Shown in pieces: positions 1,935 to 14,967 of a stretch of DNA of 64,000 nt (the first letter of the stretch is position 1; each line of letters opens with the position of its first letter). Origin of the DNA: Lachnospiraceae bacterium (GTDB taxonomy: Bacteria > Bacillota > Clostridia > Lachnospirales > Lachnospiraceae); the NCBI GenBank assembly GCA_022483465.1, contig JAKVNF010000001.1, positions 1,178,001-1,242,000 on the forward strand, given 5' to 3'. Both the position numbers and the translations under genes were made by a program. Below the pieces are notes generated by a model that made no database searches, had not been told where the DNA came from, and saw nothing but the letters and a program-made list of their open reading frames with translations.

Positions 1935-2242
1935 GGCGTTAGTAAAGAACCGGGTTGATGGGTTCCATACCACAACCTCCATGGTGAACTCTCGACGCGA
2001 TAATGTCCGATGAAGATATAGAATCCCCATTTGGAGCTCTTTTCTTCTCCGCATAATGCCTATCTTGTTATTTATAGTCACATACTCGGCAAGTGAGTGT
2101 ATGTGTTTAGGCAATCTAGGTGATGCTTTGTTACATGATGCAACACAGCACGGATAGGAGTGTACCCAGCTCGAGCTCAAAGTGAGGTATTAGTGGTCTC
2201 ATGCTAGGCGATCGCTTATCAACCCGTTTCTTAACTAACGCC
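1935..2242. mobile_element. 308-bp MITE-like element, copy 1
   Basis: This 308-bp element appears identical, by eye, to copies at 12119-12426 and 13062-13369. The outer 25 bp are inverted repeats matching at 23 positions (left end GGCGTTAGTAAAGAACCGGG; right end read inward GGCGTTAGTTAAGAAACGGG). AAATAGTA flanks it on both sides (1927-1934 and 2243-2250), an exact 8-bp target duplication. It has no transposase gene. It sits 33 bp before the end of the spacer leading to the rhodanese-like gene and may affect its promoter. Confidence 0.9.
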
Positions 2243-2282
2243 AAATAGTAAAGACATCACGCATAGGAAGGCAGGAATTTTC

Positions 2283-2600
2283 ATGGGTCTTTTTCACAAA
2301 GCACTGACCGTCAACGAAGCCATCAATGAGAGCCGCACGACGCCAAATGCCGTGCTCGTCGACATCCGGAGCAAGAACGCCTACCGGGAGGGATATGTGG
2401 CAGGAAGCGTCAACATTCCCCTGGACAAGGCAGAGCTCATCACTCACCGCATCCCGGACCGGGAGACCAAAATCTATGTCATCGGGAGCACCGCTTCCGA
2501 GCCCGCCAAGGGTGTCCGGGCGTTCAAAAAGCTCGGATACAAAAATGTCGTGCAGAGCGGTTTCATGGAGGATCACCATGGCCTGCTCCGGCACGGCTGA
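2283..2600 (+). CDS. Rhodanese-like domain protein, catalytic cysteine missing
   Basis: A single-domain rhodanese fold of 105 residues, cytoplasmic, without a signal peptide. The conserved VLVDIRS strand (about 24-30), the GSVNIP motif (41-46) and the C-terminal LGYKNV motif are recognisable. The active-site loop, which normally starts with the persulfide-forming cysteine, reads VIGSTASEPA (66-75) and has no cysteine, so sulfurtransferase activity is not expected; a binding or regulatory role is possible. The start follows a GGAAGGCAGGA ribosome binding region. MITE copy 1 ends 40 bp upstream. The gene converges on the J-domain gene. Confidence 0.8.
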   Translation: MGLFHKALTVNEAINESRTTPNAVLVDIRSKNAYREGYVAGSVNIPLDKAELITHRIPDRETKIYVIGSTASEPAKGVRAFKKLGYKNVVQSGFMEDHHGLLRHG

Positions 2601-2624
2601 ACATAAGTCTCTGTATTAGCAATC

Positions 2625-3542
2625 TCACATCCGGGTGACCAGAAGGAAGGTGATGAGGATCCCCGCCGCCACAATCACGGTGCAGAGCACAGCGGTGATG
2701 ATCCGGCTGCGCCTCTTTGCCCGGCAGGCTTCGAGCTCCTCCCGCCCCTCCCGGATCGCGGTGCGCACCTCGTCCACCACCGACTCCGCGGCGGAGAGGC
2801 TGTCTGCCAGTTCCCGGCAGGACGCCTCATTCTCGAGAAAGTCCTCCGCATCCTCCAGAACGCCCCGGAATTTCGGATTCTTTCCGTCCATCAGCTTGTA
2901 CATGGCCATCCGCAGTTCCTCCACCTGCAGCTCCAGGGACTGGATGTCCTTTTTTGCTGCGGACGGTGCCTGCTGCTGCACCCGCTGCTCCACGGACATG
3001 GCAATGCTCCCCGGGCGGATGAAGGCCGCCGCTGCGGCAGAGACCGCCGCCTGCCTTCGCTCCACCTCCCCAGAGAGGGTGGTGAAGGCCTCCAGGGCCG
3101 AGACCACCTCCTGCGGCGCGGCGCCGCTGTGGGCCGCCACCATCTTCCGGAGGACCTTTGCGTGCTTTTGCAGCGCGTCAAAATCCGATGGCTTCTCCGC
3201 CATCTCCCCCTCCATGTCCTCCGCCAGGCGGATCATGTCCTCTTTGGTAAAGAACACTTCCTTCTTCGGCTTCTCAGACTCCCTGCGGCGAAGCTCCGCC
3301 AGTGTCGGCTCCGCATCCTGCTCACTCCGCTCTCCCGGCAGCACAAAACTCCCGTCCCGGATCCCCGCAAGGATCAGGTCGTGGGCCTCATTGATCCGGC
3401 TTGCCATCTGTGCCGCCTCCGGCCTGCCCTCATTTGCATCCGGATGGTACTCTCGCATCAGCCTCTTGTACTTGATGTCGATCGCCTTTTCGCTGTCCCC
3501 GTCGGTGATGCCCAGCAGGGCGCAGGCTTCCTCTTGTGTCAT
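2625..3542 (-). CDS. J-domain protein with coiled coil and C-terminal membrane anchor
   Basis: A J-domain at residues about 1-60 carries the HPD motif (33-35) that stimulates Hsp70 (DnaK) ATPase. It is followed by a long, charged, mostly helical region with a likely coiled coil around 180-260, and a hydrophobic segment in the last about 25 residues (about 281-302). This is the layout of a tail-anchored J-protein facing the cytoplasm; it lacks the Gly/Phe and zinc-finger regions of DnaJ. The frame extends to a TTG at 3563, but the ATG at 3542 has GGGGGA nine bases upstream, giving 305 residues. Its client is unknown. Confidence 0.75.
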   Translation of the reverse strand: MTQEEACALLGITDGDSEKAIDIKYKRLMREYHPDANEGRPEAAQMASRINEAHDLILAGIRDGSFVLPGERSEQDAEPTLAELRRRESEKPKKEVFFTKEDMIRLAEDMEGEMAEKPSDFDALQKHAKVLRKMVAAHSGAAPQEVVSALEAFTTLSGEVERRQAAVSAAAAAFIRPGSIAMSVEQRVQQQAPSAAKKDIQSLELQVEELRMAMYKLMDGKNPKFRGVLEDAEDFLENEASCRELADSLSAAESVVDEVRTAIREGREELEACRAKRRSRIITAVLCTVIVAAGILITFLLVTRM

Positions 3543-3611
3543 ACAGTCCAATCCCCCACACAATTCAAGACAGGAGTTATCTTAACACAGGACCGTCCCC
3601 GTTCAAAAGAC

Positions 3612-3651
3612 AAAACAAAGCAGCGCCAGGAGAGGACTCTCCTGCCGCTGC
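3612..3651 (-). terminator. Terminator of the GH3 gene
   Basis: On the minus strand GCAGCGGCAGGAGAG pairs with CTCTCCTGGCGCTGC, followed by a T-rich tail. It lies just past the stop of the GH3 gene. Confidence 0.65.
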
Positions 3652-3695
3652 GTGCATTCTTATTTTCCGGGCCAGGTGTCTGACTATTCCCAGGC

Positions 3696-5975
3696 TCAGT
3701 CCTCCACGACCTTGTTCAGAGTTGCGATCAGGCCCTCCAGCTGCTCACCGTTCATGACGCCGAAGGAGATCAGGGACTTCAGCGGCATGTAGAGCATCAT
3801 GGCCTTGTTCATCTCCTCCTCGCCGGCGCCGAGGCGTGCATCCGGATCGTCCTTCTTGGCGTCTTGGCCGCCGAGAGGATTCATCTGGGAGAACAGCTTC
3901 TGGACCACGGCTGCCGTCTTCTGATTGGAGAGAAGCTGGCCGATCGTGGTATCTCCTGCCACGTGGAGCGGAAGCTCCACCTCGGTGGTGAAGTGAATCT
4001 CCGCCGTTGCCGTGATGTGGTCGGAGGAATCGCCGGCCTGCAGCTCATAGGTGCCGGAAGCGGCATACCAGTCGCCAAGGCGCTCCTCAAAGTAGCTCAG
4101 CGCTCTGCGGTCGATGGCAAAAGTCACCGTCTTGGTCTCGCCGGGTGCCAGATCCACCTTGGCAAAGCCCTTGAGCTCCTTTTCCGGCCGTCCAGTGGTG
4201 CCGGTGCGGTCGCTGATATAGAGCTGGACCACTTCCTTGCCCTGCCGGGATCCGGTGTTGGTGACATCCACGGAGGCTGTCAGGACGTCTCCATCCGTCA
4301 TCTCGCTCTTGTCCACCCGCAGGTTCTTCACCTCGAAGGTCGTGTAGGAGAGGCCGTGGCCGAAGGCCCAGCGCACCGGCATCTTCTTGGTGTCATAGTA
4401 GCGGTAGCCGACAAAGACGCCCTCCTGATAGTGCACCTTGTAGGAGTCTCCAGGGAAATTCAGGTAGGACGGATTGTCCTCGAGCTTCATCGGGAAGGTC
4501 TCTGCGAGATGTCCCGAGGGATTGGCAATGCCGTAGAGGAGATGATCCTCTGCCGTGCCGACAGCCTGTCCGCCAAGGTACATCTCGAGGATCGCCGCAA
4601 CGTCTCCTGCCCAGGGCGCCTCGATGGGGCTGCCGTTGTGGAGCACCACCACGACGTTCTTCTGGACCTTGGCGATCTCCTCGATGAGCTTCACCTGGCA
4701 GGCCGGCATCTTCATGTTCTTGCGGTCATATCCCTCGGACTCGATGACATCCGGAAGACCTGCAAAGATGACCGCGACATCGGCGGCCTTCGCAGCCTCC
4801 ACGGCCTTGTTCAGCTCCTTGGCATTCTCCTCGTCCTTGTCTGCGGGGAAGCCCTTTACATAGGTGACGGCCCTTCCTGCTGCCTTAGCCGCATCCAGGG
4901 CGCTGACCACCTTCGAGGAGTTGATGTGGGAGGAGCCGCCGCCCTGGTAGCGGGGCTTTTCCGCATACTCGCCGATGTAGGCGATCTTCTGTCCCTCCTT
5001 CAGGGGCAGGATGCCGTTGTTCTGCAGGAGAACCGCGCAGTTCTCCTCCACCTTCTCTGCAGCCTCATGATCCCGGTCGCGGTCAAAGGTGCCGCCCACC
5101 CGGTTGTCATAGTGGTCATACATCACGGTCAGAAGCCGCTCCACGGCCCGGTCGACGAGTTTCTCGTCAAGGGCGCCGCTCTTTACCGCATCCACGATCT
5201 TTTTGTCGTTTGCCTTGGTGTTGCCGGGCATCTCGAGCTCGAGGCCTGCCTTGACGCCCTGCACTCTGTCGTCGACGGCGCCCCAGTCGGTCATGACCGC
5301 GCCCTGAAAGCCCCAGTCCTCCCGGAGGACCTTGTTCAGCAGCCACTCGTTGTCAGAGGAGTAGGTGCCGTTGATCTTGTTGTAGGAGCACATGACGGTC
5401 TTGGGCTGGGACTCCTTCACCGCGATCTCAAAGGCCGGGAAGTAGATCTCACGAATCGTGCGCTCCGAGGCCTCCGCGGAGATGTTCATGCGGTTGGTCT
5501 CCTGGTCATTCAGCGCAAAGTGCTTGATGGAGGTGCCGACATGCTTCGACTGCACGCCGCTGATGTAGGCCGCTGCCATCTTTCCTGCCAGGTACGGATC
5601 CTCGGAGAAGTACTCAAAGTTTCTTCCGCAGAGCGGACTTCTCTTGATGTTGACGGCGGGTCCTAAGACCACGGCAAGATCCTCTGCCTGGCACTCGTCT
5701 CCGATCGTCTCTCCCATCTTTTCGATCATGTCCGTGTCAAAGCTCGATGCCGTGGCGCAGGCTGCCGGGAAGCAGACTGCCTTGATCGAGTCGTTGATGC
5801 CCAGGTGGTCTCCCTCCTGGTCCTGCTTGCGCAGGCCGTGAGGGCCGTCGGACATCATAAATCTGGGGATGCCCAGCCGCTCCACCGCCTTGGTGTGCCA
5901 GAAATCGTCGCCGCCGAGGAGACTTGCCTTCTCCTCCAGCGTCATCTGCGCGATCAGTTTTTTCACGTCTGTCAT
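3696..5975 (-). CDS. Glycoside hydrolase family 3 beta-glucosidase
   Basis: A 759-residue GH3 enzyme that probably releases terminal beta-linked glucose (or a related sugar) from oligosaccharides. It shows the N-terminal TIM-barrel domain, the nucleophile aspartate in VMTDWGAVDD (about residue 229), the alpha/beta-sandwich domain and a fibronectin-III-like domain. A tail of about 90 residues follows the last domain. No signal peptide is seen, so it is probably cytoplasmic. The frame is open to 6092, but GGAGGAGGTT before the ATG at 5975 fixes the start. The exact substrate cannot be read from sequence. Confidence 0.9.
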   Translation of the reverse strand: MTDVKKLIAQMTLEEKASLLGGDDFWHTKAVERLGIPRFMMSDGPHGLRKQDQEGDHLGINDSIKAVCFPAACATASSFDTDMIEKMGETIGDECQAEDLAVVLGPAVNIKRSPLCGRNFEYFSEDPYLAGKMAAAYISGVQSKHVGTSIKHFALNDQETNRMNISAEASERTIREIYFPAFEIAVKESQPKTVMCSYNKINGTYSSDNEWLLNKVLREDWGFQGAVMTDWGAVDDRVQGVKAGLELEMPGNTKANDKKIVDAVKSGALDEKLVDRAVERLLTVMYDHYDNRVGGTFDRDRDHEAAEKVEENCAVLLQNNGILPLKEGQKIAYIGEYAEKPRYQGGGSSHINSSKVVSALDAAKAAGRAVTYVKGFPADKDEENAKELNKAVEAAKAADVAVIFAGLPDVIESEGYDRKNMKMPACQVKLIEEIAKVQKNVVVVLHNGSPIEAPWAGDVAAILEMYLGGQAVGTAEDHLLYGIANPSGHLAETFPMKLEDNPSYLNFPGDSYKVHYQEGVFVGYRYYDTKKMPVRWAFGHGLSYTTFEVKNLRVDKSEMTDGDVLTASVDVTNTGSRQGKEVVQLYISDRTGTTGRPEKELKGFAKVDLAPGETKTVTFAIDRRALSYFEERLGDWYAASGTYELQAGDSSDHITATAEIHFTTEVELPLHVAGDTTIGQLLSNQKTAAVVQKLFSQMNPLGGQDAKKDDPDARLGAGEEEMNKAMMLYMPLKSLISFGVMNGEQLEGLIATLNKVVED

Positions 5976-6104
5976 TTTGATAACCTCCTCCGGTTTCGAA
6001 TCTGAACCGGTGATCTTCTGATCTACTGTTCCCAGTGTAACATCTGCCGGTCCTGCCGATAGATGATATCGCATTTTTATAAATGATTTCAATGTTTGCG
6101 GGCA

Positions 6105-6142
6105 TAAAAAATCCCTCCCGGGGCGCAGGCCCCGGAAGGGTT
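6105..6142 (-). terminator. Terminator of hsp20
   Basis: On the minus strand a stem of CCGGGGC and GCCCCGG with flanking pairs is followed by TTTTTT. It sits between hsp20 and the GH3 start. Confidence 0.8.
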
Positions 6143-6209
6143 ACAGGAGAAAATATTAGCATGGCAGTCAGTAGCCTAACTGCATTGTGTTACCAAAAAT
6201 CATACTGCA

Positions 6210-6671
6210 TCAGTGGATCTCGATGCGGGCGGTATCCGCCTTTGCCTCGACTTCCTTCTTCGGAAGGGTCAGGGACAGAACGCCGTTCTCATACTTTGCC
6301 TGAATGTCCTCAGGCTTGATCTCCTCGTCCACACGGAAGGATCTCTCATAGTTGGCGCTGGAGCGCTCCCTGCGGAGTACTCTACCGCTCTTCTCGTCCT
6401 TCTCCTGGGTATCCGCCTTGTGGGAGGCGCGGATCGTCAGCACATGATCCTTCAGGTCCACATGGATGTCGTCCTTCTCAAATCCCGGAAGATCGGTCTT
6501 GAGCTCATAGGCGTTGTCCTTTTCCACGATATCGGTCTTCATGCCGGCCGATGCGCGGTTCCCGTCTCCGGTGAACGCATTCCACATCTGTCTCCAGGTC
6601 TTCTCCGGATCAAACAGATCCAGCATCTCATTGTCATCATCCTGATTCCAAAGCATCGGTACAAACATCAT
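6210..6671 (-). CDS. Small heat-shock protein Hsp20 (alpha-crystallin domain)
   Basis: A 153-residue cytoplasmic holdase chaperone that keeps unfolding proteins soluble for refolding by ATP-dependent chaperones. The alpha-crystallin domain spans about residues 40-140, with the DLPGFEKDDI motif near its start, the A-x-x-x-NGVLxLxLPK signature near its end, and a short C-terminal extension. AAAGGAGG precedes the ATG. A near-consensus sigma-A promoter lies upstream (6783-6811). No CIRCE element was found here, in contrast to lon. Confidence 0.92.
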   Translation of the reverse strand: MMFVPMLWNQDDDNEMLDLFDPEKTWRQMWNAFTGDGNRASAGMKTDIVEKDNAYELKTDLPGFEKDDIHVDLKDHVLTIRASHKADTQEKDEKSGRVLRRERSSANYERSFRVDEEIKPEDIQAKYENGVLSLTLPKKEVEAKADTARIEIH

Positions 6672-6782
6672 CGCACTGCCTCCTTTTCGGTTTCCGGTTC
6701 CGCCCCTCCGGCGGCCGGTACGGTTTTGATTTTCTTGGATTCTTATTGATGTCCCTTGGGATCTCTCCCTCCGGACAAGTAT

Positions 6783-6811
6783 GTTATAGCTCAGCTAGCA
6801 CATATAGTCAA
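6783..6811 (-). promoter_or_regulatory. Sigma-A type promoter of hsp20
   Basis: On the minus strand, TTGACT (6806-6811) and TATAAC (6783-6788) are separated by exactly 17 bp, about 110 bp upstream of the hsp20 start. Confidence 0.65.
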
Positions 6812-7106
6812 GCCGATATAAGAGTTTTTATACTTTGTTTAGATTTGCCTTTACCGCTGTCAAGAGCCGATTTGGAAGGTGCATCCGTTTTCACTCTTTT
6901 CAGATTTTGAAGCCCGGATACCTGCCTTTTTATGGGCGTTTGCGAAAGCTCCGCCCAGAAATCAAAACTAAATCCCACCTTTAAAAATAAAAATGACTAA
7001 ATGATAGGTCCAAATGTCGGCGATCTGCCACGTTACAATAGACGTTCAACATTGTTACAATAAATTGTGGGACGTTATCAATTTGAGAAAATCTGAATAA
7101 TAATAA
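6812..7106. other. AT-rich spacer without a recognisable gene
   Basis: About 300 bp between the hsp20 promoter and the IS4-family element. No ORF with a ribosome binding site and no structured RNA was recognised. It ends in a run of AAT repeats that forms the IS target site. Confidence 0.5.
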
Positions 7107-7198
7107 CTCAAACTTCCCACTTGGTCCGACCCTCGAAAAACGTTGAAAATACGCCCAAAACCGAGCTTTTTACTATGAGTTTTTCGGCTTCTTGACAA

Positions 7199-7227
7199 TT
7201 GAAAAAGCACTCTGTGCCTTCTATAAT
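7199..7227 (+). promoter_or_regulatory. Promoter of the IS4 transposase
   Basis: TTGAAA (7199-7204) and TATAAT (7222-7227) with a 17-bp spacer. It lies inside the longest reading frame, so the real start codon must be further downstream. Confidence 0.6.
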
Positions 7228-7266
7228 ATGATCATCCACAATCAAAAGAAAGTACAGGTGCTCACA

Positions 7267-8676
7267 GTGAGTATACATCAAAACAAGCCAATTGCAACTG
7301 CTAATTTCGAGGACGAATGTGCGTTTGGAAACGCCATGAAAGAGCTTGGCGTAAGCGCTCTCCTGAAGGCCTCCAATATCACCAAGGCGAAGGGTGCCTC
7401 TGCATATGAGCTCTTTCAGTTTCTTGTAATCCTCGTGTTCCAGAAGTGCAACCTGTATCACTTCCTCAACTCCAAGAAGAAGGATACTGCCTATGACGAT
7501 AACACCTACTACCGCTTCCTGAATGAAGGACGCTACAACTGGAGAAAGTTCATCCTGATCCTCTCCGCCAGGATTGCCGCCTATTTCACTACTCTTACCC
7601 GCGAGAACAGGGCACGATGCTTCGTGCTCGATGACTCTGTCATCGCCCGTAACCGTTCCAAAAAGGTGGAGCTGCTCTCCAATGTCTACAATCACGTGAT
7701 CCACAGAACCGAGAGGGGATTTAATCTCCTTCTTCTTGGGTGGACCGATGGATACAGCTTCCTTCCGGTCCAGTACATCATGCTTGCTTCGGCCAAGGCT
7801 AAGAGCCGCATCTGCGACGTATACGACAAGCACCTGCGTCATAACACCAACGCGTACAAGAGACGGGTGGATGCAATTACGCAAAAGCCCGTGATTGCAC
7901 TTCAGTTGCTTCGCTTCGCCATTGACGCTGATATCAAAGCCGAATACGTGCTCATGGATACCTGGTTCACGACAGAACCGTTCATCTGCAACATCAAGAA
8001 CCTCGGCCTTGAGGTGATCGGCATGCTCAAAGATACCAAGCAGCAGTATTGGTACAAAGGCAGGCTGTATAACCTGAAAGGCCTTGCGAAGACTGCCATC
8101 CGTCATTGCCCGCAGGGGAACCTGTTCGGGTCCATTGTTGTCAAAACGAAGTATCAGCAGCTTCCTGTCAAGCTGGTCTTTGTCCGCAATCGCAACAAGA
8201 AGGATGAGTACATCATCCTTCTGACCACTGCGGTGACTCTGCCCGACAGTGAGGTAGTCAGAATCTATGGCTACAGGTGGGGCATCGAGGTATGCTTCAG
8301 GGCATGTAAGTCCCTTCTCAAGCTTGGCAAGGAGTTTCAAGGACTCAGCTACGACGTAACCGACAGCACAACTGCACTCGTGCTCACACGATTTCTCATT
8401 CTCGAGTATATCCGTCGCAAGAAGAATGATCCCAAGACCATCTGTGAGCTGTTCTTCGTCTGCTGTGATGACATTCAGGATATTTCCCTGAAGCAGTCGA
8501 TTGACCGTCTTGCTGCAATGCTGATCGAGGGGGTCAGAACAGGTGATGTCTCCATTCAGATCTCCGAAAAGATGCGTAGCGACCTGACGAACTGGTTTTC
8601 GACACAGCCTGAGTTTATACAGAACCTGTTCCGCGACTTCCTAAATTTGTTTCTAACAAGCGATAAAGTTGCATAA
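7267..8676 (+). CDS. IS4-family DDE transposase
   Basis: The transposase of the IS4-type element. The catalytic triad is seen as Asp in FVLDDSV, Asp in VLMDTWF and Glu within the IS4 signature Y-x2-R-x3-E-x6-K, read here as YGYRWGIEVCFRACK. The frame opens at 7192, but a promoter at 7199-7227 overlaps that part. The GTG at 7267, with AGGTG upstream, is therefore the likely start (469 residues); an ATG at 7228 is the alternative. No frameshift or stop is seen, so it may be functional. Confidence 0.87.
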   Translation: MSIHQNKPIATANFEDECAFGNAMKELGVSALLKASNITKAKGASAYELFQFLVILVFQKCNLYHFLNSKKKDTAYDDNTYYRFLNEGRYNWRKFILILSARIAAYFTTLTRENRARCFVLDDSVIARNRSKKVELLSNVYNHVIHRTERGFNLLLLGWTDGYSFLPVQYIMLASAKAKSRICDVYDKHLRHNTNAYKRRVDAITQKPVIALQLLRFAIDADIKAEYVLMDTWFTTEPFICNIKNLGLEVIGMLKDTKQQYWYKGRLYNLKGLAKTAIRHCPQGNLFGSIVVKTKYQQLPVKLVFVRNRNKKDEYIILLTTAVTLPDSEVVRIYGYRWGIEVCFRACKSLLKLGKEFQGLSYDVTDSTTALVLTRFLILEYIRRKKNDPKTICELFFVCCDDIQDISLKQSIDRLAAMLIEGVRTGDVSIQISEKMRSDLTNWFSTQPEFIQNLFRDFLNLFLTSDKVA

Positions 8677-8786
8677 TGCTGTCAAGTTTCAAAAAATCAC
8701 CTGTTGAGCAAGAAACCATCGGCTGTTACAGCATTTTTCAAGTGGGAAGTTTGAGTAATAAGTGTAAGAACGAGGGGGAACCGTGA

Positions 8787-10019
8787 TTGGAAACTCTTCT
8801 TTATTGTGAGCTTCATATATTGTCGATCAGCGTTCTGATGGTTCTTTTGTATCTCTATCGCAGGCAGGAGGACCACACCCTCTCCGGGCACTGGTTCAAC
8901 AGAGTCCTGATCGCCTTCATCCTGCTCTTTGGCGTGGACCTTGTTTTGGAACTGCTCGTGGGAAACATGCACTCGGATCTGAGCTACTGGCGGGGCTGGA
9001 TGGTCTACCTGATCGCCTACAACCTGGCGGCGGCCATCTGGTGCAGCTACTCGGAGACCCAGGTGTACGAGGCCATCTTTCCGGACCGGCGCTTTTTCTC
9101 GTTTCTTCGGACGATCATCATCGTCAACTGCGCCATCAGCACGGTCTGCCTGATCTTCGGACGGGACTTCTTCACCAGCGCCCACTACCTGCACTCTGCC
9201 ACTGGGTACTTTGTCACCGAGGCCACGCTCCTCTTCGCACTCCTTGTTGCCACTTCGATCCGGCTGTACGTCGCCACGTCGGACATTGCGGATGCCAACC
9301 AGCGGCATGTGAAATACCTGTGTGCCTCGGTCCCCTTCTTTCTGATCGGGGGCCTGGTCCTCGCCCTGGCAAGTCAGAACGCCACCCTGGCGGACTTGCC
9401 GATCACCGTGATCCTGATCGTCTGCTTTCTGGACACCACCTCGCGGCAGATCTCCACGGACAAGCTCACCGGCATCAACAACCGCCAGTATCTGATGAGT
9501 TTTGTCGTGCAGGAGATTCAGAACCAGGAGGAGAAAAAGGAGAAGGCGCCGGGCCTGTTCCTGCTCATGATCGACGTGGACTTCTTCAAGGAGGTCAACG
9601 ACCGCTACGGCCACCAGGAGGGCGACGAGGCATTGATCCGGGTTGCAGATGTGCTCAAGACCTCCTGCGCCTGCTACGCCGGCAGGGCTTTTCTGGCCCG
9701 CTTCGGCGGGGATGAGTTCATCATCGTCTGCGAGGCGGAGAATCCGGATCAGGTATCCGAGTTCCGGGAAAAGATTCTCATGACCATGCAGCAGTTCAAT
9801 GTCTGGACCTACGAGAAGGACGCCAAGCCCTTCGATCCCCAGGATCCGCTGCACAACCTGCAGCTGTCGGTGGGCATTGGCTCCTACAAGCCCGGCATGA
9901 CCCCGGTGGAGCTCTTAAAGTCCGCGGACAAGGACCTCTATCGCATCAAGGCGGAGCACCACTCCATCCGCAACAAGAGACACGATCTCGCCTGCGATCT
10001 CTCCGAGGCACCCCTCTAA
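8787..10019 (+). CDS. Membrane diguanylate cyclase (GGDEF domain)
   Basis: A 410-residue protein that probably makes cyclic di-GMP from two GTP. The N-terminal half has about seven hydrophobic segments, likely a membrane sensor. The GGDEF domain carries DVDFFKEVND and an intact FGGDEF motif (about 305-310). The position of the inhibitory I-site reads RAFL instead of RxxD, so product feedback may be absent. The likely start is TTG at 8787 with GAGGGGG upstream. The IS4 element ends about 30 bp upstream, so the native promoter has probably been displaced. Two terminators follow. Confidence 0.87.
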   Translation: METLLYCELHILSISVLMVLLYLYRRQEDHTLSGHWFNRVLIAFILLFGVDLVLELLVGNMHSDLSYWRGWMVYLIAYNLAAAIWCSYSETQVYEAIFPDRRFFSFLRTIIIVNCAISTVCLIFGRDFFTSAHYLHSATGYFVTEATLLFALLVATSIRLYVATSDIADANQRHVKYLCASVPFFLIGGLVLALASQNATLADLPITVILIVCFLDTTSRQISTDKLTGINNRQYLMSFVVQEIQNQEEKKEKAPGLFLLMIDVDFFKEVNDRYGHQEGDEALIRVADVLKTSCACYAGRAFLARFGGDEFIIVCEAENPDQVSEFREKILMTMQQFNVWTYEKDAKPFDPQDPLHNLQLSVGIGSYKPGMTPVELLKSADKDLYRIKAEHHSIRNKRHDLACDLSEAPL

Positions 10020-10058
10020 TGGGGTTCTCCCGTTCCACCATATGATCCAACTGTTTAA

Positions 10059-10089
10059 CCGCCGCTGCCCACCGGGCGCGGCGTTTTTT
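10059..10089 (+). terminator. Terminator of the diguanylate cyclase gene
   Basis: CGCCGCTGCCC pairs with GGGCGCGGCG, followed by TTTTTT. Confidence 0.8.
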
Positions 10090-10128
10090 GCGCGGAGGAT
10101 GCGCTGCAGCAGGAAGAAACGAAAGGAA

Positions 10129-10161
10129 AGAGGGCTGTCTCGAGGGACAGTCCTCTTTTCT
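10129..10161 (+). terminator. Second terminator hairpin
   Basis: AAAGAGGGCTGTC pairs with GGACAGTCCTCTTT around a short loop, followed by further T residues. It may work in both directions. Confidence 0.6.
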
Positions 10162-10188
10162 TTACAGCCGGTGCGGGTACCCTTGATA

Positions 10189-10349
10189 TGTACCCAGAAT
10201 TCTGGACACATTGACTATCATGAGGCACCACAACTGGATGCGATCCTGTATTGTACAGGAGGCATCCAGTTTGTTTTCTTCTGGATTCTCCTGTTGTTAT
10301 GGTAATCGATATCATCATCGACTGCAGTAACGAATTTCTCAAAGGACTT
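10189..10349 (-). pseudogene. Remnant of an IS3-family element (orfB 3' end)
   Basis: The minus strand encodes only the last about 43 residues of an IS3/IS150-type OrfB integrase, recognisable by DIDYHNNRRIQ followed by MPPVQYR, ending at 10218. Beyond the stop lies TGTACCCAGAATTCTGGACA (10189-10208), which looks like the terminal repeat with the expected TG at its outer end. The rest of the element is gone. Its inner edge runs into the 3' end of the small membrane-protein gene. Confidence 0.75.
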
Positions 10350-10575
10350 GACTCTCCTGGAACAGGTTGTAGCGAGGGTCCCCGAAGAACTGGTAGTAGA
10401 GGGCAGTGATTCCCTGCATCGCCAAATACCACACAAGAATCTCTCCCACCATGCGCGGGATGCTGCGGCTCTTTTTCCCAAGAAAGATCACAATCAGCGC
10501 GATGTACACCAGAGAGAGCGACAGGCGCAGCTTGCTGGCCTTCACATCGATGATGATTTCGTTCCAATATCTCAT
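10339..10575 (-). CDS. Small membrane protein, 3' end altered by IS3 remnant
   Basis: A 78-residue protein with two hydrophobic segments (about 18-32 and 43-60), function unknown. The ATG at 10575 is chosen over earlier in-frame codons because GGGGAGGAA lies seven bases upstream. The last few residues and the stop come from the IS3-remnant DNA, read in a different frame from the transposase, so the original C-terminus is probably lost. Whether the product is still functional cannot be judged. Confidence 0.55.
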   Translation of the reverse strand: MRYWNEIIIDVKASKLRLSLSLVYIALIVIFLGKKSRSIPRMVGEILVWYLAMQGITALYYQFFGDPRYNLFQESQVL

Positions 10576-10657
10576 GCCGCAGTTCCTCCCCGCCCGCCCC
10601 GAAGGGGACAGTATCCTCTGCCGACAGCATAACACAACCGATGCCGATTTTGAGACC

Positions 10658-10698
10658 GGAAAAGGCGCAGCCCCCGATGTTGGGACTGCGCCTTTCCG
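10658..10698 (-). terminator. Hairpin terminator after metY
   Basis: GGAAAGGCGCAG pairs with CTGCGCCTTTTCC just past the metY stop; the T tract after it is short. Confidence 0.6.
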
Positions 10699-10732
10699 AA
10701 ATCTATTTCTATGTGCTTTTGAGCGAAACACC

Positions 10733-12037
10733 TTACTTGTTCTGCAGGGCCCTCACCGCTGCGAAGCCGTTCTCCAGATCCCAGATGATGTCGTTGACAT
10801 CCTCGGTACCGATGGAGAGGCGGATCGTGTTCTGGCCGATCTGCTGTTCCGCAAGCTCCTCCGGGGAGAGCTCTGCGTGTGTGGTGGTAGCGGGATGTAC
10901 CATCAGGCTCTTCACATCCGCCACGTTGGCGAGCAGAGAGAAGATCTGCAGGGCATCGATGAAGGCGAAGGCCTCCTTCTGGCCGCCCTTGATGTTGAAG
11001 GTGAAGATGGAACCCGCACCGTTCGGGAAGTACTTCTCATACAGGGCGTGATCCGGATGATCCGGGAGAGAGGGATGGTTGACCTTCTCCACCAGCGGAT
11101 TGCTCTGCAGGTACTCGATGACCTTCTTCGTGTTCTCGATGTGCTTGTTCAGGCGAAGAGACAGCGTCTCCAGGCCCTGCAGCAGGATCCAGGCGTTGAA
11201 CGGGGAGATGGTAGCGCCCTCGTCGCGCAGCAGGATCGCACGGATGTAGGTGATGAATGCGGCCTTGCCCGCTGCCTGCACGAAGGAGATGCCGTGGTAG
11301 GACGGGTTGGGCTCGGTGAACTGCGGATACTTGTCGGACTTGGACCAGTCAAAGGTGCCGCCGTCGACGATGATGCCGCCGAGGGAGGAGCCGTGGCCGC
11401 CGATGAACTTCGTTGCGGAGTGGACCACCACATCTGCGCCGTGCTCGATCGGGCGGATCAGGTAAGGGGTGCCGAAGGTGTTGTCCACGATGACCGGAAG
11501 TCCGTGCCGATGGGCGATCTCGGCGATCGCATCGATGTCCGGAATGTCGGAGTTCGGGTTGGTCAGGGTCTCAATGAAGACGGCCTTGGTGTTGGGCTGA
11601 ATGGCTGCCTCGACCTCCTTCAGATCCCGGGCATTGACGAACGTGGTGGAGATGCCGAATCCCGGAAGGGTGTGCTTTAACAGGTTGTAGGAGCCGCCGT
11701 AGATGGTCTTCTGTGCCACGATGTGATCTCCTGCTCCTGCAAGAGCCGTGACCGCGTAGGTGACGGCTGCGGCGCCGGAGGCAACCGCAAGACCTGCCAC
11801 TCCGCCCTCCAGGGCTGCCAGCCGATCCTCGAGGACGGCCTGGGTGGAGTTGGTCAGTCTTCCGTAGATGTTGCCGGCATCGCGCAGGCCGAACCGGTCC
11901 GCTGCGTGCTGTGCGTTGTGGAAGACGTAGGACGTGGTCTGATAGATCGGGACCGCTCTGGAATCCGTTGCGGGATCGGCCTTCTCCTGGCCTACGTGTA
12001 ACTGCAGTGTCTCAAAACCAAACTTGTGCTCGCTCAT
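10733..12037 (-). CDS. metY: O-acetylhomoserine sulfhydrylase (MetY)
   Basis: A PLP-dependent Cys/Met-metabolism enzyme of 434 residues that makes homocysteine from O-acetylhomoserine and sulfide. Diagnostic regions are YGRLTNST near the phosphate site, the VDNTFGTPY strand with the cofactor-binding Asp, and the Schiff-base lysine in HSATKFIGG (about residue 210). Length and motifs match MetY rather than the shorter MetB/MetC. TAGGAGA precedes the ATG. Upstream are MITE copy 2, then a leader ORF and a palindrome over a promoter, suggesting sulfur-responsive control now separated from the gene by 308 bp of inserted DNA. Confidence 0.92.
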   Translation of the reverse strand: MSEHKFGFETLQLHVGQEKADPATDSRAVPIYQTTSYVFHNAQHAADRFGLRDAGNIYGRLTNSTQAVLEDRLAALEGGVAGLAVASGAAAVTYAVTALAGAGDHIVAQKTIYGGSYNLLKHTLPGFGISTTFVNARDLKEVEAAIQPNTKAVFIETLTNPNSDIPDIDAIAEIAHRHGLPVIVDNTFGTPYLIRPIEHGADVVVHSATKFIGGHGSSLGGIIVDGGTFDWSKSDKYPQFTEPNPSYHGISFVQAAGKAAFITYIRAILLRDEGATISPFNAWILLQGLETLSLRLNKHIENTKKVIEYLQSNPLVEKVNHPSLPDHPDHALYEKYFPNGAGSIFTFNIKGGQKEAFAFIDALQIFSLLANVADVKSLMVHPATTTHAELSPEELAEQQIGQNTIRLSIGTEDVNDIIWDLENGFAAVRALQNK

Positions 12038-12118
12038 GATTTTCTCCTAATTCTGAACCGGTCCGCCTCCTGCAGAGAAATGGTTCTGCCGTGGCGCCGG
12101 TGTTCTCACTTTTTATTT

Positions 12119-12426
12119 GGCGTTAGTAAAGAACCGGGTTGATGGGTTCCATACCACAACCTCCATGGTGAACTCTCGACGCGATAATGTCCGATGAAGA
12201 TATAGAATCCCCATTTGGAGCTCTTTTCTTCTCCGCATAATGCCTATCTTGTTATTTATAGTCACATACTCGGCAAGTGAGTGTATGTGTTTAGGCAATC
12301 TAGGTGATGCTTTGTTACATGATGCAACACAGCACGGATAGGAGTGTACCCAGCTCGAGCTCAAAGTGAGGTATTAGTGGTCTCATGCTAGGCGATCGCT
12401 TATCAACCCGTTTCTTAACTAACGCC
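12119..12426. mobile_element. 308-bp MITE-like element, copy 2
   Basis: It appears identical to copy 1 and has the same terminal inverted repeats. TTTTATTT at 12111-12118 and 12427-12434 is an exact 8-bp target duplication. It lies in the untranslated leader of metY, about 80 bp upstream of the start codon and downstream of the putative promoter and leader ORF. Confidence 0.92.
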
Positions 12427-12493
12427 TTTTATTTTTTCTTATTTTGTATTCGGGTTGTATGGCCTTTGCGGGAGCCTGTTTTCTGCGCCCGGA

Positions 12494-12547
12494 TCACATT
12501 CGGGCGGTGGCGCCTCCCACCAGGCAGCGGCGGTTTGTGGTCTGCAT
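12494..12547 (-). CDS. Putative metY leader peptide (17 residues)
   Basis: MQTTNRRCLVGGATARM, with AAGGAG eight bases before its ATG and a GC-rich inverted repeat over its second half. An Arg-Arg-Cys stretch at residues 6-8 would suit translation-dependent sensing of charged Cys-tRNA. It lies about 20 bases downstream of the predicted metY transcription start. Evidence is the ribosome binding site, position and codon content; no experimental family is claimed. Confidence 0.4.
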   Translation of the reverse strand: MQTTNRRCLVGGATARM

Positions 12548-12571
12548 TCCGTTCGCTCCTTTCTTGGTATT

Positions 12572-12601
12572 CCTATTACTTTAATAGGTTTTGTTTGTCG
12601 A
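12572..12601 (-). promoter_or_regulatory. Putative metY promoter with palindromic operator
   Basis: CCTATTACTTTAATAGG (12572-12588) is a perfect 7-3-7 palindrome. It overlaps a possible -10 (TAATAG on the minus strand, 12573-12578), which is 17 bp from a possible -35 (TCGACA, 12596-12601). The palindrome resembles sites bound by Rrf2-type regulators such as CymR; that link is inference. Confidence 0.45.
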
Positions 12602-12649
12602 TGACCATACGATATCCTTAACTTCCAGCGGGGTGATGACTTTACAAAG

Positions 12650-12690
12650 CGGCCCAGAGGCAATTCCAACGTTTTGCCTCTGGGCCGTAC
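12650..12690. terminator. Strong hairpin after the IS1634-type unit
   Basis: CGGCCCAGAGGCAA pairs perfectly with TTGCCTCTGGGCCG. It separates the metY leader region from the IS small ORF and may terminate in either direction, though T runs are short. Confidence 0.55.
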
Positions 12691-12708
12691 TTTTTCATTT
12701 TTGGAGCT

Positions 12709-12921
12709 TCAACCCTGGATGAATGCAAGGACCTCTTCGTAAGTTTTCGTACTTTTCTTCATCGCCGTGGAGATCGCTTTCAGTGCTTTCTGCTCTTTCT
12801 TCCTCTGGAGCTCCTTCAGCCTTTTCTGCTCATCATCGTATTTCGCCTTTACTTTATCAACCGCGTCTTGCTGCTTTCTGATTGCTTCATCGATCTGGGC
12901 AAATGAACTCTGTTCTTCCAT
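12709..12921 (-). CDS. Small coiled-coil protein encoded with the IS1634-type transposase
   Basis: A 70-residue, highly charged helical protein with heptad-like spacing, likely a coiled coil. AGGAGG precedes its ATG. It begins 18 bp after the original stop of the interrupted transposase (12939), so the two were probably one unit. I do not recognise its family; an accessory role in transposition is an inference from position only. Confidence 0.6.
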   Translation of the reverse strand: MEEQSSFAQIDEAIRKQQDAVDKVKAKYDDEQKRLKELQRKKEQKALKAISTAMKKSTKTYEEVLAFIQG

Positions 12922-12938
12922 TGCGTAAACCTCCTCTT

Positions 12939-14967
12939 CTATTCCTCACTGCTCTCTGCAGCGGTCTGATCGTATTTCTCAAACTGATCGGCAAGCTTCT
13001 CTGCTTCCCGCTTCACAGTTCCGCTATTCATGCCAAACGCGGAAAGGATCATTTTCTGATTGGCGTTAGTAAAGAACCGGGTTGATGGGTTCCATACCAC
13101 AACCTCCATGGTGAACTCTCGACGCGATAATGTCCGATGAAGATATAGAATCCCCATTTGGAGCTCTTTTCTTCTCCGCATAATGCCTATCTTGTTATTT
13201 ATAGTCACATACTCGGCAAGTGAGTGTATGTGTTTAGGCAATCTAGGTGATGCTTTGTTACATGATGCAACACAGCACGGATAGGAGTGTACCCAGCTCG
13301 AGCTCAAAGTGAGGTATTAGTGGTCTCATGCTAGGCGATCGCTTATCAACCCGTTTCTTAACTAACGCCTTCTGATTTTTCGTAACTGCGTAATCCATGT
13401 GATATCGGCCATCTGTGAGTTTCGTCATCTGAATCATTTCCAGCTCGGCAAGCGCACCAGGCACTGTCATGAAATTCGGGTCATCCCCATTCTTATCCTT
13501 TTGGTCTTTCAGAAGACTGTAGATTTCACTGCGGACCGTCAGTGCGAGGAATTCAATAAAAATCTTGGATGATGCGGATCCTGTCGATGCCACCCGTATC
13601 GTCGCATCCCCAAGAAAGCTCTTGTCACTTCCAAAGAGTTTTTCCGATGCATCACGGCTTTTGTAAATCCTGTAAGCAGTCACTGCATCCATTTCCTCTG
13701 ACGTGATGATTGCGAAGTATCCACACGTTTTCAGCTCTGCTTCAATGACATCTGTTTTCTCCACTGCAGTCACAAAGACCTCCGGGTCTTTTGGATCCAT
13801 TATGATGTCGAAGTAATTCTCATAATCCTTCGGAATCGTCACTTTCTTTCCTGTGAGCTTTTTCAGCTTTTCCCCGATTTCGGAAATTTTGTCCTCCAGA
13901 GTCTTGCGCTCTACGTGCTCCTTGAACGTGGAGTGATACAGATGGAAATACCTCTCACGGTCCGCAAGATCAGCCTTTTCCGTCATGCCATAGACTCCAC
14001 TGTTGTTGATCTTGCAATCCCGCTTTTCTTCAAACAGCCCGCGGTGCTCCAGAATCATTTTGCTGATCAGATCCTTTTGACCCTTGCACATGATTATGAA
14101 GCTCAAACCGTTTTTATCCAGATACCGCAGATTGTCTTCTGAGAAATATCCCCGATCTATGATGAACGTCGCTTTGCTATACCCATAGCCTTTTGCCTTA
14201 CCAACGATGTACGCAAGCTGAGAAACATCCGGTATACTGCCGGGATACCATTCATAGAACAATGGCATCCTGTTATCCAGATCGTATCCAATCGCATAAT
14301 TGAAGATCTTTCCTTTTACGCCATCCTTGGAATGCCCCGGTTCCGCCGTTTCGATATCTCCGGACTGACAGTGCTTGTTCGTCGAATCATAGGATATATT
14401 CACCTTCTGATTGTGATCTCTGTCTGCATTCCAGTCATTTAAGAATCCTTGGATCTGTTCATCCGTGATGGAACCGAGCAGATTCGAAATCGACGAATCA
14501 CTGTACCGATGCATGCTGTCCGTAAACAGCGGATGGTTGAATGTGTAGATGGGATAATACAGTGCCTTGTTATCCTCTGTGACGATGGAGTATGCCATCA
14601 GATCCATGATCTTTCCGGCATCTTTTGCTTCGAAATGCTGGAGCAGTTTTTTCTTCATTTTGAGTTTTTCCATCACCTTCTGGATGATCAGAAACGCCCC
14701 AAAGTTGATTGTTACCGACCTCGTCGGATCCACCTCTTCCGGCGGATATGCCAGATCCGGGAAATAGATCATGAAGTTCTCGTTGGGGTACATCTTGTCC
14801 AACTGATCCTTGACCCGTTTTCCGATAATCTTGTGCTTCGACAGTGTATACTTTTTGTCTTTATCGTATTTTCGTTCCTCGGCGTATCGAACGTACTCAG
14901 TCCCGTTTTTAGAAAGATACGTAATGCCCTTAACGTCCGGAATGCCCACCGGCGTCGTGAGATACAT
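12939..14967 (-). pseudogene. IS1634-type transposase interrupted by MITE copy 3
   Basis: A DDE transposase with Asp in NISYDSTNKH, Asp in FIIDRGYFS and a late YRIYKSRDASEKLF motif bearing the likely Glu. MITE copy 3 (13062-13369) sits in the codons for Asn-Gln in AVTKNQK. Removing it and one 8-bp repeat restores a frame ending ...KYDQTAAESSEE at 12939. As it stands, the reading frame runs into the MITE and stops at 13258, giving 569 residues with about 37 foreign ones at the end. GGGAGG precedes the ATG at 14967. The catalytic core is complete, so residual activity is conceivable. Confidence 0.82.
13062..13369. mobile_element. 308-bp MITE-like element, copy 3
   Basis: It appears identical to copies 1 and 2. 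TTCTGATT at 13054-13061 and 13370-13377 is an exact 8-bp target duplication. It is inserted in the 3' part of an IS1634-type transposase gene, so this insertion is younger than that IS. Confidence 0.93.

Follow-up and report, generated by a model that had tools for sequence, protein, structure and literature searches.

Miniature inverted-repeat transposable elements (MITEs) associated with the IS1595 family of insertion sequences (ISs) are already known as a kind, with an example tabulated from Haloquadratum walsbyi alongside its partner ISHwa6 (Kamoun et al. 2013, PMC3852290 Table 4). Relatives of the IS1595 family include the eukaryotic Merlin transposons, whose ends carry GG and whose duplications are 8 or 9 bp long (PMC8101967), and for one IS1595-family member, ISApl4, an inverse polymerase chain reaction (PCR) product has been interpreted as a circle in which the 8-bp duplication forms the joint (PMC12561309). 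In the main text of a review of Correia and ERIC repeats, IS1595 is mentioned zero times (PMC10969869). Here we describe a 308-bp MITE family in a Lachnospiraceae bacterium (assembly GCA_022483465.1; 4,300,133 bp in four contigs, written C1 to C4), three copies of which lie in the 64,000-nucleotide stretch that was analyzed (C1:1178001-1242000, hereafter the window). We consider it very probable (about 0.88) that these repeats, which lack a transposase of their own, are mobilized in trans by transposases of the IS1595 family encoded elsewhere in the genome, and the family is strikingly young.

Copies, target sites and age of the family

The three copies in the window (1935-2242, 12119-12426 and 13062-13369, all on the plus strand) share one identical 308-bp sequence, whose 25-bp inverted ends, GGCGTTAGTAAAGAACCGGGTTGAT and GGCGTTAGTTAAGAAACGGGTTGAT, match at 23 of 25 positions; in the first copy these ends were found by the end pattern at 1935-1959 (plus strand) and 2218-2242 (minus strand). 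Each copy is flanked by perfect 8-bp target duplications that differ among the three: AAATAGTA at 1927-1934 and 2243-2250, TTTTATTT at 12111-12118 and 12427-12434, and TTCTGATT at 13054-13061 and 13370-13377. The original prediction, made from the letters of the window, had reported these copies, ends and duplications correctly, and its reading of them as MITEs agrees with their shortness, lack of a transposase, inverted ends, duplications and a co-resident IS with matching ends. At 308 bp the element is too small to encode a transposase, and frames of at least 80 amino acids that start inside it exit through the left end into the flank. The predicted internal hairpin exists at element positions 145-173, near CACATACTC. 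The palindrome GAGCTCGAGCTC, by contrast, had been misread: this 12-mer has no match in the window, and the element instead holds CAGCTCGAGCTC, which includes the 10-bp palindrome AGCTCGAGCT.

With up to three mismatches, the end pattern has six matches in the window, every one of them a MITE end, and none in 100 shuffles, which excludes chance for the MITE ends. Since the window holds no further MITE-like ends at this threshold, the source of the MITEs must lie outside it, in line with the earlier claim that no transposase there has matching ends. Transposase genes in the first 15 kb of the window belong to ISL3 (276-1772), IS4 (7192-8676) and IS1634 (13258-14967) elements, all three of which were ruled out as the source for want of such ends. 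The second MITE copy lies upstream of a minus-strand gene for a Cys/Met-metabolism enzyme (10733-12037). The third lies inside the IS1634-family element, near the 3' end of the transposase gene, and cuts its minus-strand open frame so that the final codons are MITE sequence.

Three copies in the window proved to be a small part of a genome-wide total of more than 100. A search with the 308-bp query returned at least 42 matches, 40 of them full-length at 100% identity (40 of 219 candidates scored), while a MITE-internal 21-mer allowing three mismatches occurred 115 times genome-wide (58 + 57; control 0). The end pattern occurred 170 + 167 times, a count that includes the ends of related ISs, versus 0 for the pattern read backwards. 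Copy statistics rest on the 106 core matches that were retrieved: 103 uninterrupted copies (102 plus C4:478396, completed separately) and three interrupted ones, namely two outer MITEs with a nested MITE and one MITE with an ISAzo13-family element. In the last of these (C1:1119223-1121051) the split MITE is beta-like, in the terms given below, and the outer flanks repeat TAACTGTT.

Alignment of the copies revealed no wide divergence; instead, nearly all fall into three groups of one sequence each. Alpha, to which the window copies belong, comprises 63 of the 103 uninterrupted copies, all exactly identical; beta comprises 20, with 8 differences from alpha, and gamma 15, with 10 differences, seven changes relative to alpha being common to both. 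Five variants remain: two copies that differ from gamma by one further change each, one beta-like copy (7 differences), one alpha copy with three right-end changes and one older-looking copy (18 differences); among the copies retrieved, none is alpha with one or two changes. At positions 74, 116, 162, 171 and 254 the older copy agrees with beta and gamma, whereas at 170 it agrees with alpha and at 150 with neither. Because it is largely in the beta/gamma state, alpha looks derived, and we infer that three master sequences may have been amplified in turn, gamma/beta-like ones first and alpha last, almost without later mutation. The absence of any change in 62 alpha copies (19,096 bp) sets an upper limit of about 1.6e-4 changes per site after amplification (rule of three, with copies treated as independent, which hitch-hiking copies are not), and so few mutations imply that the latest wave is very young. 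At C3:417228 and C4:53061, which carry the oldest-looking and an alpha MITE, the left flanks share 57 of 60 positions and the right flanks only 16 of 60, with both duplications intact.

Target duplications are nearly as uniform as the copies themselves, with perfect 8- or 9-bp duplications around 101 of the 103 uninterrupted copies (100 of 102, plus C4:478396). After 10 rows with shared flanks or tandem neighbors were dropped, 92 copies remained (46 per strand); the duplication is perfect in 90 of them, at a length of 8 bp in 80 and 9 bp in 10, and two of the 90 are the inner copy of a nested pair and hence one event. The duplication length first put forward, 8 bp, thus holds for most copies and not for those with 9 bp. 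Empty sites in the same genome prove MITE insertion. The IS1634 element has seven near-identical copies genome-wide, and the six other than that in the window are uninterrupted with a single TTCTGATT; the flanking repeats are thus true target duplications, and not part of a longer ancestral repeat. The flank of an IS66-like element (the NCBIfam IS66 transposase matches each of its halves, though with scores under the cut-off) gave ten matches: six carry the same alpha MITE insertion at TAAACGAT (C1:770237, 810760, 1270588 and 1445168; C2:767518; C3:700230), three are empty with a single TAAACGAT and one is too short. These six copies indicate that MITEs also hitch-hike in other elements. Near-invariant copies, nearly always perfect duplications and empty sites together bear out the recent activity that had been proposed.

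Insertion sites follow a sharp rule. The pattern WWNNNNWW (W being A or T) was found at 78 of the 80 eight-bp MITE sites versus 525 of 7176 8-mers (7.3%) located 15-60 bp away, and across 87 events the GC fraction is 0.35 within 20 bp of the insertion (duplication included) versus 0.53 at 200-400 bp.

IS1595-family partners and hybrid-ended copies

A genome-wide search for MITE ends flanking a transposase gene, the check that had been recommended, found two IS1595-family elements, both outside the window. IS-A (1187 bp; 335-amino-acid transposase) has two intact identical copies, while IS-B (1214 bp) has 44 full-length open frames encoding a protein 72-73% identical to that of IS-A. Both proteins exceed the cut-offs for the NCBIfam IS1595 transposase (IS-A 110.6 and IS-B 113.6 bits; cut-off 75), Pfam DDE_Tnp_IS1595 (46.4 and 44.9 bits; cut-off 27) and the N-terminal zinc-binding domain NF050000 of NCBIfam (IS1/IS1595; 38 and 42.5 bits; cut-off 28), and both fall below that for Pfam Zn_ribbon_InsA (19.7 and 21; cut-off 26.1). 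The left end of IS-A matches both MITE ends at 24 of 25 positions and its right end at 22 and 20, while the IS-B end matches at 22 of 25; the outer 9 bp are identical across the MITE, IS-A and IS-B ends compared. Similarity between the IS-A left end and the MITE right end extends over 28-30 bp, and with the left end of an IS-A relative in Fusobacterium naviforme that MITE end is 96.7% identical over 30 bp.

The two ISs also resemble the MITE in how they insert. Among 26 exact full-length IS-B copies, 24 have 8-bp and two have 9-bp duplications (26 of 28 loci scored; L078 and L079 were excluded, for an array and a changed end base), and the eight-bp sites have A/T at the same four positions in 24 of 24 cases. 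One IS-A copy is flanked by TTCTCGAA, and the other has no matching duplication. Of the partner families initially offered (ISL3, IS6, IS66 and IS1595), similar ends, duplication length, target preference and co-residence in the genome point to IS1595, and the ISL3 element in the window drops out because it lacks matching ends. A gap of 7 bp separates an IS-B copy from an IS-A copy at L058:154-2561 (C1:634516-636923); this pair was probably made by rearrangement, because its outer duplications do not match.

Several copies join MITE and IS-B ends or combine MITEs with each other. At C3:522849 a 340-bp element consists of 32 bp of IS-B end followed by a gamma MITE, the whole being flanked by TTTTTATA. 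Its simplest reading is one transposition event using an IS-B end and a MITE end, and the presence of both ends within one duplication suggests that the IS-B transposase can use MITE ends. The same IS-B/MITE junction (≤2 mismatches) occurs at only one other site, inside the IS-B copy at C1:1014618, where gamma MITEs begin 32 bp from the IS-B end. At C3:546685 the right end of an alpha MITE carries precisely the three bases needed to turn it into an IS-B end, and this copy is flanked by a perfect duplication of 9 bp. Nested pairs (624 bp, MITE in MITE) occur at two places with different outer duplications, which indicates that the pair probably moved as a unit.

Tandem arrays are the least ordinary and least explained feature of the family. 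Four gamma MITEs at C1:1014650, and two alpha MITEs at C2:928411, are separated by exactly the 8-bp duplication, giving a period of 316 bp. The four-copy array is enclosed by an IS-B copy whose own duplication is intact, and a base at position 63 is present in its first and third units and absent from the second and fourth, as if a dimer might have doubled. A circle joined by an 8-bp duplication and a tandem array would give the same inverse-PCR product, and either could yield the other.

Taken together, these features are consistent with a family that most likely originated from an IS-A-like IS1595 element and would at present be mobilized by IS-A, by IS-B, which is far more numerous, or by both. 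The transposase would bind the 25-bp ends and insert the element into A/T-rich WWNNNNWW sites, copying 8 (sometimes 9) bp of target. Tentatively, we extend this to one MITE family served by two IS1595 transposases, in which IS-B may pair its own end with a MITE end to create new chimeric miniature elements, and in which IS1595-type transposition may proceed through the element plus one 8-bp duplication, as a circle or a directly joined dimer, to produce the arrays of 316-bp period.

Weighing the alternatives

Several observations weigh against mobilization by the IS1595-family transposases. Likeness between MITE and ISs is limited to about 25-30 bp at the ends; the best interior match is a 20-bp stretch at 80%, which is not convincing (E 2.1 for IS-B and 7.5 at the corresponding place in IS-A). 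A simple internal deletion of IS-A or IS-B was rejected as the origin of the MITE on the same ground, there being no convincing similarity beyond about 30 bp at the ends. The adjoining IS-B and IS-A copies lack matching duplications, one duplication (C2:244186) has a mismatch, two of the 80 sites (ACCGGGAA and TCTGACAA) break the WWNNNNWW rule, and 9 of the 115 core matches lie outside the retrieved set. The hybrid at C3:522849 has no duplication at the MITE boundary, and it is missing the extra position-63 base that the first MITE of the C1:1014618 array carries; a direct origin from the present locus is thereby excluded, and the hybrid would have left it earlier. Alternatively, recombination across shared end bases could have removed the IS-B body from an IS-B::MITE copy and so produced this element. 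Finally, movement in trans is read from the copies and their partners, and no transposition was observed.

The closest rival holds that IS-A alone mobilizes the MITE, and that the IS-B hybrids reflect recombination between similar ends instead of IS-B transposase action. We take this seriously while leaning against it: IS-A has two intact identical copies and the better-matching left end (24 versus 22 of 25), and the common outer 9 bp would make short recombination possible, but IS-B has 44 full-length frames to the two of IS-A, the target rule is the same for IS-B and MITE sites, and C3:522849 has a single duplication at the outer limits of the hybrid-ended element, as direct transposition predicts. 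Misassembly is a somewhat doubtful account of the tandem arrays. Repeats are readily misassembled, and only two such loci were seen, one of them about 2 kb from a contig end; on the other hand, the alternation at position 63 (units 1 and 3 versus 2 and 4) and the intact duplication of the enclosing IS-B copy count against an assembly error.

Two further explanations concern why the copies are alike and why they persist. Gene conversion, as opposed to youth, could keep copies identical, given ample substrate from many near-identical copies, the conversion-like exchange at one end of C3:546685, and a beta-like copy with the alpha base at position 254. These two are the only mixed copies, however, with alpha, beta and gamma otherwise kept distinct by 8-10 fixed differences; the duplications are nearly all perfect, and the IS1634 insertion is missing from the six other near-identical IS1634 copies, making conversion improbable as the general cause. 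Retention as a functional RNA or regulatory repeat, spread through its usefulness, is more improbable still. On either strand the element folds into a structure more stable than any of 100 shuffled versions (z -3.8 and -4.7), but the paired ends account for part of this fold, the internal hairpin is poorly preserved in variant copies, no Rfam match reaches the gathering score in the window, positions 1900-2300 hold no sigma-70-like promoter or terminator, and the MITE was found in none of 98 relatives. Trans-mobilization by IS1595-family transposases remains our preferred explanation.

Distribution and comparison with known systems

Among 99 genomes the MITE was found in one, its own, and the exact end pattern likewise occurred only there among 392 genomes sampled from the order. 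Phage records gave no match to the MITE, and the end pattern appeared in one viral contig (IMG/VR, 47,832 bases), as an IS-B end near the contig end (L095:8815-8839). The IS-A transposase matched 64 plasmid records, all below 60% identity, and 3 of 61 other genus members at 27-47% identity; a contig scan with this transposase picked out three relatives, and in the genomes of two of them the end pattern located both ends of a single IS, with no match in the third. A Eubacterium sp. metagenome-assembled genome contains an element (L088:2357-3570) that matches IS-B at 99.9% identity over 1214 bp, which points to recent horizontal transfer, with a misplaced contig in that assembly also possible.

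The family amounts to a clean natural experiment in which end specificity, cross-mobilization and the IS1595 transposition intermediate become directly testable: it combines more than 100 near-identical insertions and a sharp target rule with controls in the form of empty sites, and its two co-resident candidate transposases can be told apart by their ends. A literature search linking MITEs, insertion sequences and Lachnospiraceae found nothing, and in the literature consulted on IS1595-family elements and bacterial MITEs a hybrid-ended or tandem IS1595 MITE was not found.

By the descriptions available, the family has one of its closest counterparts in the H. walsbyi MITE, which is likewise non-autonomous with an IS1595-family partner, 25-bp inverted repeats and 8-bp direct repeats; the likeness lies in these described features, and that archaeal element is 165 bp long with 7 copies, as opposed to 308 bp and more than 100 copies here (PMC3852290). 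MITEAba12 of Acinetobacter also has a co-resident full-size IS with matching ends and, as here, several other ISs with similar ends that could serve it, but it is mostly 113 bp long with 9-bp duplications, and its 90 copies are spread over many genomes with 22 in one strain, unlike the more than 100 in this single genome (PMC6382973). ISApl4 (IS1595 family, IS1016 group; 39 copies in one genome) shares the A/T-rich 8-bp duplications, and its circle junction has the same form as the tandem units described here; it differs in being autonomous, 712 bp long and bounded by other ends (GGGGCTGTACTAGA), and its available description mentions no MITE (PMC12561309). Correia and ERIC repeats are similarly short, high-copy, non-autonomous and bacterial, with copy numbers above 120 and as high as 711, yet other MITE families, as reviewed, vary in size and sequence, whereas this one consists of three internally identical groups with an identified candidate IS1595 partner (PMC10969869). 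Against this background, the Lachnospiraceae family is distinguished by the number of its copies, their near-zero divergence, the presence of two candidate helpers and the occurrence of hybrid-ended copies.

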